64,000 bases of DNA from Clostridia bacterium. Lineage in GTDB: Bacteria > Bacillota > Clostridia > Oscillospirales > Acutalibacteraceae. Position 1 is the first letter of the stretch. The number at the start of each line of letters is the position of its first letter. The notes under the pieces are model-generated. The model was not told where the DNA came from, ran no database searches, and saw only the letters and a program-made list of their open reading frames with translations. A program made the translations under genes and the position numbers. This document shows, piece by piece, positions 1,454 to 16,921 of the stretch. The stretch is taken from NCBI GenBank assembly GCA_017415025.1, contig JAFQJH010000025.1, positions 1 to 64,000 on the forward strand, written 5' to 3'.

Positions 1454-1537
1454 TGGTGCGAGAGACGGGACTTGAACCCGTACGGGATTACCACACGCCC
1501 CTCAAACGTGCGCGTCTGCCGATTCCGCCACTCTCGC
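1454..1537 (-). tRNA. tRNA-Leu (anticodon GAG), copy 1
   Basis: 84 nt including the encoded CCA. Acceptor stem GCGAGAG/CTCTCGC, 5-bp anticodon stem around loop TTGAGGG (anticodon GAG), a long variable arm, and T-loop GGTTCAAGTCC. It reads CUC/CUU leucine codons. Sequence is identical to the copy at 10742-10825 on the other strand. It has its own promoter and terminator. Confidence 0.97.
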
Positions 1538-10741: not shown

Positions 10742-10825
10742 GCGAGAGTGGCGGAATCGGCAGACGCGCACGTTTGAGGGGCGTGTGGTAATCCCGTACG
10801 GGTTCAAGTCCCGTCTCTCGCACCA
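10742..10825 (+). tRNA. tRNA-Leu (anticodon GAG), copy 2
   Basis: 84 nt with encoded CCA, identical in sequence to the minus-strand copy at 1454-1537. Acceptor stem GCGAGAG/CTCTCGC, anticodon loop TTGAGGG. Its promoter and terminator differ in sequence from those of copy 1, so only the tRNA body is duplicated. Confidence 0.97.
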
Positions 10826-14510: not shown

Positions 14511-16001
14511 TTACTCTGCTGTATATTCGAGAGTGCCGACAGTTTTCCAGATATTTTTGCGGTAAATTTTGACTTCAATTTCGTTAAGTCCGTCCTCATT
14601 CATCCAAGCATTGCCTGTGAATATCTTGTTGCCGTTTTCGTCTGTTGCGGTTGAAGCAACCGTTACTGACGTATTGTTCGGCATTTTGAACATTACTTTT
14701 TCCGTCTTTTCATCTGCTACAACCGTTGCGGGTACGGGGCCCTTCTTGCCTGAAGTTGTGGAAAGCTCCATTGAAACAATGGGGTTATACGGTTCAATTG
14801 TGAAGCTGTATTCAGCGCTATCCCATACATAGTTTTCCTTGCCGCGGACTTTGATTTCAACGCCGACGCTCATATTAGAATGAATATTCCACACCTCATA
14901 AGCAAGGTCGCGGCTCAATTCGCTTACAACCTCACCGTCTGCATTGTAGCTTGTGATTGACACATTTTTATTGTATCTGTCGTAGGTTCTTGTACCGCCG
15001 TCAGGCTCAATGAACTGAATCATCTGCTGTCTGCCGTTGGCTGTGACTGTGAAATCTTTGTGTGTGTCTTCTTGCTGAAGGTAATCTACGTTTTGAATAT
15101 CTTGGCGGTAGTTGTAGTGGATCGAAGAATATGTTAACAATTGCTCATTTCCGTCTTCAATATTTATTCTGTTCCAATCTTCTTCAGAGCCTTCATAATA
15201 AACATTTAGTAATGTACCGTAATTATTGCCAAAAGCACTTTCATCGATTTGAGTAACACTTATTGGAACTACAATATCAGTCCAGTTCCGCATATATTGC
15301 ATATACTGACTAGGTGCACTAGAAATTCTTATTATTTCTGTATCTAAAATTATTTTTTTCACTAAACTAAGAGCGTTATACAAACATCCTCCGTCTCCCA
15401 AATACATATAAAAATACATTTCAGGAGCATAAAAAGAGTCCGTTCTTGTAACCGTAAGTGTACCATTTTCATCAAATATGTATTTACCGTCTGCAAAACT
15501 AATTGTGGCAACATATTTGCAATCATAATTATAAACAATTTGATTTTTCGGAATACTGTTTTCTACTTTTTCCCAATCACCTTCAGAACCCTCATAACAT
15601 ATAATAGGTATTCTACCGGTTTCGTCACTTACATTAGTAACACTCGTTGGAATAACTATGCTTACGCAGTTATTCAATTGATTAATCGGAAACTCTCCAT
15701 ATATATCTGTAAAACCATCTTTAATAACAATCTTTTTGACTTGTCCAAGATAATTATTAACTGCAATATCGACGCTTTGTTGATACAAATAATAATACAT
15801 TTCAGAAGCAAGAAATGTGCCTGTTCCCGTAACAGTAAGCGTACCGTTTTCGTCAAGCACATATTTACCGTCAGCAAAAGAAATAGACCCGTTAATTTCT
15901 AACGCACTTGCAGCAACATCAAGGTCTGCAAGCGGAACAATGCCGACAAGCATTACAAGCGCCAGCAACGCTGATAGAATTTGTTTAATTTTCCTCTTCA
16001 T
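14511..16001 (-). CDS. Secreted protein with two BspA-like repeat units
   Basis: 496 residues from the ATG at 16001 (SD AGGAGG). Signal peptide about 1-32 (MKRKIKQILSALLALVMLVG...). Two related units follow (about 38-160 and 166-300), each opening with SISFADGKY.. or TISFADGKY.., then DENGTLTVT, and closing with YEGSE(G/E)DW before Y-N-Y. This pattern is typical of BspA/LRR_5-type surface proteins of gut Clostridia. Residues 310-496 are beta-rich, without a recognised domain or LPxTG anchor. It stands alone between two repeat islands and is preceded by an unusual structured leader. Role in surface binding is inference. Confidence 0.8.
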   Translation of the reverse strand: MKRKIKQILSALLALVMLVGIVPLADLDVAASALEINGSISFADGKYVLDENGTLTVTGTGTFLASEMYYYLYQQSVDIAVNNYLGQVKKIVIKDGFTDIYGEFPINQLNNCVSIVIPTSVTNVSDETGRIPIICYEGSEGDWEKVENSIPKNQIVYNYDCKYVATISFADGKYIFDENGTLTVTRTDSFYAPEMYFYMYLGDGGCLYNALSLVKKIILDTEIIRISSAPSQYMQYMRNWTDIVVPISVTQIDESAFGNNYGTLLNVYYEGSEEDWNRINIEDGNEQLLTYSSIHYNYRQDIQNVDYLQQEDTHKDFTVTANGRQQMIQFIEPDGGTRTYDRYNKNVSITSYNADGEVVSELSRDLAYEVWNIHSNMSVGVEIKVRGKENYVWDSAEYSFTIEPYNPIVSMELSTTSGKKGPVPATVVADEKTEKVMFKMPNNTSVTVASTATDENGNKIFTGNAWMNEDGLNEIEVKIYRKNIWKTVGTLEYTAE

Positions 16002-16015
16002 TATTTTTCCTCCTA

Positions 16016-16047
16016 AAAATAAAAAGTGCGCAGCCGAAGCTGCGCAC
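16016..16047 (-). terminator. Terminator hairpin in the leader of the secreted-protein gene
   Basis: GTGCGCAGC (16026-16034) pairs perfectly with GCTGCGCAC (16039-16047) around a 4-nt loop and is followed on the minus strand by TTTTTATTTTT, immediately before the AGGAGG SD. This is the layout of a transcription attenuator, or of an independent small RNA end. Confidence 0.88.
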
Positions 16048-16189
16048 GAAAAATACATAGCTCCAACTGTCGCCAAACAAATCCCCACAGACAAACAAGT
16101 GTATGCAGAAACAGAGCATCTGTATTTTTGCCAAAAGGCAGAAAAATACACACACTTAGTTTGTCCAACAATATTCGGATTTGTTTGGC
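16020..16189 (-). ncRNA. Candidate structured leader RNA or small RNA
   Basis: On the minus strand the transcript predicted to start near 16189 begins GCCAAACAAATCC (16177-16189), which pairs perfectly with GGATTTGTTTGGC (16072-16084). Inside this 13-bp stem lies a second imperfect stem (GACAAACTAAGTGTGTG with its partner around 16089-16106) and a terminal hairpin (TATTTTTC-TGCC/GGCA-AAAATA). A perfect terminator follows, then the SD. Total about 170 nt. I do not recognise a known riboswitch class, 6S RNA or SRP RNA in it. It could be a cis-regulator or a stand-alone small RNA. Confidence 0.6.
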
Positions 16190-16195
16190 AATTTT

Positions 16196-16224
16196 AGTTT
16201 ATCACAAAAAAGAAGAAAAATCAA
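16196..16224 (-). promoter_or_regulatory. Candidate promoter of the structured leader
   Basis: Minus strand TTGATT (16219-16224), 17-bp spacer, TAAACT (16196-16201). Transcription would begin near 16189, exactly at the first base of the 13-bp closing stem. Confidence 0.5.
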
Positions 16225-16921
16225 CAGTAAGATAAATTGACAAAAATTATTCGGCAAATCGGGCAGTTGCGGACAAGCTGTTTTGACCATAAAAAGAATA
16301 ATGAATAATCAAGTGGCTTCGCAACGATTTTAGGACGGCGGGAGCAAGCCCCCGCCCTACCGCATACAAATTTCATTCGGGTCGGTAGGGGCAGATATCA
16401 TCTGCCCGCGGATTCTGATATGATTTTCGGGAGCATACTATGCTCCCCTACTGGCATAATTGTATTAGGGGGCGTAGGGCGTGGCGTTTACGACATGCTG
16501 TTATTTTTTGCTGAAGCTTCGGCACGTTGGCGAGCGCCGTGCCCTACAAAATAAATTTTAATCTGCCCGACAAATTGGAGTTTGTAGGGATGTTTAAATA
16601 TTTGCTGTTTCCTAGCCCTCCTTGAAAGCGGAGGGTGGCACGGCGTAAGCCGTGACGGGAGGATTGTTTTTTAGCAATCCCTCAGTCTTTTGCTTCGCAA
16701 AATCCAGCTCCCTTTACACAAGGGAGCCGGCTCTATCCAAGCTGAATCTAACTGTAAATTTCCCCGACAAATTAAAATTTGTGCTGATTTGACGGGACGT
16801 CGTGGCGCCGTCCCCTACTAAACGCATTAAATCTACGGACATAATTAATGTCATCCCAAGCGAAGCGAAGGCTCTTTAAAAAAGATTCTTCACCACGTTC
16901 AGAATGACACAATCGAAGAAC
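16225..16921. repeat. Dispersed GC-rich repeat island, right of secreted-protein gene
   Basis: About 700 bp without a gene. Repeated blocks seen: GGGCGTAGGGCGTGGCG near 16470, CGCCGTGCCCTACAAAATAA near 16530 (similar to 14115), variants of CCCGACAAATT..A.TTTG at 16563 and 16765, TGGCACGGCGTAAGCCGTGA near 16635 and CAGCTCCCTTTACACAAGGG near 16705. These are palindromic, extragenic-type repeats. Confidence 0.6.

Follow-up and report, generated by a model that had tools for sequence, protein, structure and literature searches.

The element and its locus

The window analysed here is the whole stretch of 64,000 nucleotides. On its minus strand a promoter, a folded RNA, a terminator, a Shine-Dalgarno (SD) sequence and an ATG follow one another, in the order described in the initial annotation. 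The promoter (16196-16224) consists of a -35 hexamer TTGATT at 16224-16219, a 17-nt spacer and a -10 hexamer TAAACT at 16201-16196; with a TG at 16204-16203 it is of the extended -10 type (TG..TAAACT, 16204-16196). The whole RNA element is matched by covariance model R1 at 16016-16190 (152.4 bits, E 2.4e-31, the window copy itself being among the 26 sequences used to build the model), and the match begins at 16190. The SD, AGGAGG, lies at about 16013-16008, 5' of the ATG at 16001 of the putatively regulated gene, an open reading frame of 496 aa (14511-16001) with a signal-like N-terminus. No Pfam family was found in its product at E 0.001; LRR_5 was found below threshold, at E 0.026.

The computed folding energy of 16195-16015 is -71.5 kcal/mol, compared with -40.7 (sd 3.5) in 200 dinucleotide shuffles (z -8.9), none of which folded as well. 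The closing stem P1 has its 5' strand at 16177-16190 and its 3' strand at 16071-16084, both supported by covariation over 102 copies. Within it, fold and covariation place the 5' strand of P2 at 16149-16166, with its partner at about 16105-16089; the sequence of this 5' strand varies strongly among copies. Three further strands are of importance to the interpretation: the 5' arm of P3 (GTATTTTT, 16142-16149), the A-strand (AAAAATACAGATGCTC, 16114-16129) and the tail (GGAGCTATGTATTTTT, 16049-16064). The intrinsic terminator (16026-16047) has nine perfect pairs and a UUCG loop, is followed by the T-run TTTTTATTTT, and lies just 5' of the SD as was first noted. All of these features are on the minus strand.

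Several short palindromes with GTAGGG/CCCTAC ends are present upstream of the element, at 16330-16550. A pattern search of the same genome for these REP-like repeats gave 18 and 20 matches, against 79 and 59 for the reversed control. The window also contains two tRNA-Leu genes (anticodon GAG), at 1454-1537 (minus strand) and 10742-10825 (plus strand), which are in inverted orientation about 9 kb apart and have equal model scores.

Distribution of the element

A BLAST search with the region gave a match in 52 of 118 relatives (E 0.01 or better). From 32 loci, 30 RNAs were extracted and 26 of them were aligned (alignment A1), leaving out four long variants and also loci L020 and L029. RNAalifold found 32 pairs in the 26 aligned RNAs, 24 of which have at least one double change. 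R1 was built from P1, the inner part of P2 and the terminator only, and the pseudoknot, P3 and antiterminator described below are not in the model. The later alignment A3 holds 100 of 142 loci, with long variants left out, and alignment A4 also holds 100 loci.

A search for homologues had been proposed in the initial annotation, and copies are numerous. R1 matches were identified in 113 of 300 genomes of the same family, spread over 58 of 135 genera (E 0.001), in 103 of 295 genomes of the order (E 1e-6) and in 79 of 291 genomes of the class, 77 of these being labelled as outside the order. In a phylum-wide sample of 398 genomes there was one match, in the genome of the window itself. Each genome contributed no more than 7 or 9 scored candidates to these scans, which used stricter filters; both presences and copy numbers are thus lower bounds, and up to at least nine matches were found in one genome. 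The genome of the window has six copies. A seventh, weak match comes from the window copy read on its opposite strand; such matches stem from the palindrome of P1 and were dropped from the counts.

An exact 23-base pattern was found in 103 stretches. Among the 80 of these that were listed, the named relatives are metagenome-assembled or uncultured Oscillospiraceae, Ruminococcus, Monoglobus, Ruminiclostridium and other Clostridia, found mostly in gut samples, among them those of ruminants, rabbits and horses. A phage origin was rejected, an exact pattern being present in 0 stretches of viral_contigs, and no match to the element was found in plasmids. Two human faecal records labelled 'Bacteriophage sp.', both unverified, do match the element, at 141 and 131 bits (L273, 2076-2235, and L274, 2970-3131, each on the plus strand). 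These may be bacterial contigs, since the next open reading frames resemble, by eye, those of a lipoprotein and a zinc-ribbon protein.

At eleven loci there are two to four copies in tandem. One of them (L124, 401-1373, plus strand) has four copies about 100 nt apart, followed by an open reading frame for a PIN7-domain protein.

The many copies at unrelated loci, tandem arrays included, and the patchy presence within a single family would fit a mobile palindromic repeat, MITE- or REP-like, that carries its promoter and terminator by chance. The conservation of the promoter and of the fold bears on this explanation.

Conservation of the promoter

The promoter named in the initial annotation keeps its register over 248 distinct copies. 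A -10 of the form TANNNT is in register in 240 of the 248, and in the control comparison the counts were 243 of 248 against 35 of 248 for registers 35 nt further up. The TGN is in register in 232 copies, the gap between the -10 and P1 is 5 nt in 226, and a -35-like hexamer is found in 234, compared with 92 of 496 shifted control positions. A consensus promoter scan did not list the element's promoter and found 9 promoters against 8.9 in shuffles; the support for the promoter is therefore its conservation among copies. By this comparison, the RNA is shown to have its predicted start at P1, where it would be driven by its own extended -10 promoter.

Conservation of the fold

Across 102 copies, 96.4% of the 4554 cells of P1, P2, the pseudoknot and the terminator are paired. 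The compensatory changes that the initial annotation had suggested looking for are abundant: double-change cells number 569, where 500 shuffles average 153.8 (sd 11.3) and never reach as many, and slid structures have at most 93. P1 is the 13-bp closing stem first described; 12 of its 13 pairs show double-sided changes and 96.9% of its cells are paired. The inner stems lie as described, and double-sided changes are present in all nine of the inner pairs of P2 (92.2% paired). In the nine pairs of the terminator 99.9% of cells are paired.

A pseudoknot escaped the initial annotation: the tail, 5' of the terminator, folds back to pair with part of the apical hairpin. The pseudoknot joins the tail (16064-16049) to the A-strand (16129-16114) by 14 pairs, with 96.3% of cells paired, and by itself contains 79 double-change cells against 18.9 (sd 3.2), with at most 13 in slid versions. 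In a tree of 194 RNAs whose construction excluded the strands under test, joint changes on one branch were counted for the two variable pairs of the pseudoknot: 19 for one pair (30 and 39 events, p 3e-14) and 12 for the other (22 and 50 events, p 1.5e-6), compared with p values of 0.01 to 0.26 for unrelated column pairs. Comparative sequence evidence of this kind shows P1, P2, the pseudoknot and the terminator to be real helices.

The copies do lie at unrelated loci, yet they are no plain palindrome. The compensatory changes throughout the fold indicate that the pairing is under selection, the promoter register is fixed, and orientation and spacing relative to genes are kept. A mobile repeat is for these reasons a very improbable account of the element.

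No conserved unpaired pocket stands out in the letters of columns 13-22 and 109-118. Although P1 is a plain helix, its pairs 2, 3 and 5 barely vary (the same in 100, 97 and 99 of the 102 copies), as if the sequence were read. Together with the lack of an obvious small-molecule pocket, this would fit a protein-dependent antitermination leader, in which a protein acting in trans would bind P1/P2 or the tail and so control read-through, with no small ligand.

Proposed exchange of pairing partners

The same letters of the A-strand that are coupled to the tail are also coupled to the 5' arm of P3, its first partner: column 98 with column 69 (Fisher p 8e-7) and column 97 with column 71 (p 5e-17), both values being without tree correction. 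With G in column 98, column 69 changed from T to C 22 times; with A in column 98, a background that makes up 23% of the tree length, it never did. By our own arithmetic the binomial probability of this bias is about 0.003. Co-changes of P3 on the tree are no better than the controls, with one shared branch (p 0.93) and five shared branches (p 0.03). Wobble pairing, which renders most single changes harmless, accounts for this. In P3 84.2% of cells are paired, compared with 81.8% when segments are swapped. On these sequence comparisons P3 is the least supported helix, and its tree-aware support is modest. A U-A-U triple helix formed by the three U/A/U tracts was considered and rejected, because the coupling between the outer columns is that of antiparallel Watson-Crick or wobble pairing.

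The tail is also complementary to the 5' arm and loop of the terminator. Over 102 copies the resulting antiterminator has an energy of -18.1 kcal/mol, where the terminator has -15.7 and shuffling of the linkers gives -9.7; the median z against these shuffles is -4.0, and z lies under -2 in 91 of the 102. In 194 copies, 10.47 of 11 antiterminator pairs form between the tail and its own terminator; when terminators are swapped the number is 10.38 (sd 0.02), and none of 1000 swaps does as well. Per column, there are 34 double-change cells against 21.0 (sd 2.8) and 85.4% paired cells against 84.2%, and p is below 0.05 in three of seven column pairs and not in the other four, without correction for relatedness. 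Column-wise covariation of the putative antiterminator is thus weak. In the window copy the antiterminator (16031-16069) joins the region 16069-16054 to the region 16046-16031, and it is the minimum-energy fold of 16072-16020, at -20.2 kcal/mol (z -3.3). This fold of the lone strand, in which the antiterminator occupies the 5' arm of the terminator, was not seen in the initial annotation.

Longer variants, about 200-223 nt in length, have one more inner domain (L003, L027, L030, L031, L266 and L267) and keep the pairing of tail and A-strand. In six of the seven long variants examined, the tail has its best partner in the A-rich strand, with energies of -15.8 to -20.0 where shuffled tails give -7.4 to -9.4; the tail pattern did not recognise the seventh, L265. 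In the lone-strand optimum of the six, the antiterminator forms in four and the terminator in two.

The energy of P3 plus antiterminator (ON) minus that of pseudoknot plus terminator (OFF) has a mean of 0.0 (sd 3.8) kcal/mol and is -1.0 in the window copy, these sums leaving out the loop cost of the pseudoknot and co-transcriptional kinetics. A terminator as strong as this one, with nearly every cell paired, could also serve as an insulator or stabiliser that blocks upstream transcription or sets a low constant expression, the fold shielding the 5' end and no switching taking place. The complementarity of the tail to both the A-strand and the terminator arm, and the near-equal ON and OFF energies, are unexplained by such a role, which we regard as rather unlikely.

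Associated genes

An SD and start codon are found 4-75 nt 3' of the element in 168 of 243 copies, and at 10-19 nt in 129 of these, so that the element usually abuts the start of a gene. The 243 are the copies with 120 nt or more of downstream sequence, and an abutting open reading frame had to reach 45 aa, or 40 aa where it was truncated. By this rule 75 of the 243 copies have no abutting frame; this number is an upper bound, as some start codons were overlooked (e.g. L218, by eye). A further copy is present within 400 nt downstream in 14 of the 243.

It is possible that the 75 copies without an abutting frame are stand-alone small RNAs. A trans-acting small RNA with its own promoter and terminator, the downstream genes being incidental or fed by low read-through, would agree with the self-contained nature of the unit and with its tandem occurrence. 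The tight spacing to SD and start codon in the majority of copies argues against this for the element at large, as does the complementarity of the tail to the terminator arm, which a plain small RNA would not need, and the explanation is a doubtful one. The initial annotation had offered a riboswitch or attenuator, or a small RNA that is occasionally read through. The data support that description; the anatomy favours an attenuator, and a riboswitch in the ligand-binding sense is putative.

There are 166 downstream proteins, of which 150 were scanned as a set; six others and one repeat were scanned separately. Among the 150, and from the 25 of 50 families that were tallied, there are matches to LRR_5 (BspA-type, 21), the overlapping families HTH_19 and HTH_3 (7 each), double zinc ribbon (5), and EcoRI-type methylase, AMP-binding enzyme, CHAP and dockerin (3 each). 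In the separate scan LRR_5 was present in five of the seven. Copies with a long P2 lie immediately 5' of EcoRI-type adenine methylase genes at L057, L066 and L077.

Using a simple, home-made rule for signal peptides and mechanically chosen control frames, signal-like N-termini were found in 90 of 130 downstream proteins of at least 100 aa, compared with 67 of 421 control frames, and in 63 of 80 of at least 300 aa, compared with 33 of 196. The putative regulon consists mostly of genes for exported and membrane proteins.

Relation to known RNAs and candidate inputs

The initial annotation could not match the RNA to a known class. With the covariance models of Rfam 15, the whole window gave two tRNA matches only and none to the element; at a permissive threshold, 15900-16400 gave five matches, all far under their gathering scores. 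No description of the element was noticed in literature listings, which does not in itself establish that it is unpublished. A survey of candidate structured RNAs from human microbiomes reports 3161 candidates, 508 of them directly upstream of genes (PMC8040213). One of these could be the element; passages of the survey's text describe no candidate that resembles it (PMC8040213). The element is a real structured RNA class that is absent from Rfam.

Riboswitches with a transcription-terminating expression platform have a mutually exclusive terminator and antiterminator in a 5' leader. The element shares this arrangement, the site before the SD and the presence of many copies before functionally related genes. 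It differs in that its sensor side resembles a helix-exchange pseudoknot with no pocket identified, and in that the conserved unit extends to the promoter. Amino-acid and T-box attenuators likewise choose between terminator and antiterminator in the leader RNA. The T-box sequence was not seen in the element by eye, and there was no Rfam T-box match; a leader peptide was rejected, with no kept frame by eye and a 1-nt length change after the tail.

The c-di-GMP riboswitches are found in many copies per genome before genes for surface proteins and regulators, as is the element, which has no Rfam match to them. ANTAR target RNAs, leaders that overlap a terminator, have this feature in common with the element and differ from it in fold. 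The inputs of both were sought in 44 hand-picked genomes, most of high completeness. GGDEF domains were detected in 12 of the 28 RNA-bearing genomes examined, and undetected in 16, compared with presence in 11 of 16 genomes without the RNA; none was found in the genome of the window (83.6% complete). ANTAR proteins were present in 15 of the 28 and absent from 13, compared with presence in 15 of 16 without the RNA. On these counts neither c-di-GMP nor an ANTAR protein can be the general input. This search gave no candidate protein for the protein-dependent leader introduced above, an explanation that we consider possible but unlikely.

The type III toxin-antitoxin RNA ToxI consists of short tandem pseudoknot repeats before the ToxN gene. 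This identity was rejected for the element, which is as a rule single and about 170 nt long, and ToxN was neither among the 25 of 50 families tallied from the 150 downstream proteins nor found in the seven scanned separately.

A proposed switch

The element is probably a cis-acting transcription attenuator, of a class outside Rfam. Its status as an attenuator is well supported by its anatomy: a leader RNA runs from promoter to start codon and ends in an intrinsic terminator, and an alternative pairing, seen in energy and complementarity, would exclude that terminator. We infer that four strands, the 5' arm of P3, the A-strand, the tail and the 5' arm of the terminator, swap partners. In the ON state the A-strand would pair with the 5' arm of P3, leaving the tail free to capture the 5' arm of the terminator, and transcription would continue into the gene. 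In the OFF state the A-strand would pair with the tail in the pseudoknot, the terminator would fold, and transcription would stop just 5' of the SD. The direction of the switch, and that it has a trigger, we likewise infer. Since the ON and OFF states are computed to be nearly equal in energy, a modest input, be it a metabolite, protein or RNA or the pace of transcription, could decide between them.

It is also conceivable, as a speculative reading to which we give little weight, that the element is a ligand-free isoenergetic RNA coin, each transcript picking at random either pseudoknot and terminator or hairpin and antiterminator. A mean energy difference near zero and the lack of a visible pocket are compatible with this. 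If true, the set of surface and exported proteins on display would differ from cell to cell, and gut Clostridia would have a form of bet-hedging that is encoded in RNA and used repeatedly throughout a regulon.

With the element, the control of exported proteins in poorly studied Clostridia of the gut and rumen would gain a widespread class of structured RNA whose switch anatomy is complete. If one signal sets all of the copies in a genome, its discovery would reveal a global input to surface regulation; if there is no signal, the element would be an RNA-based source of heterogeneity.
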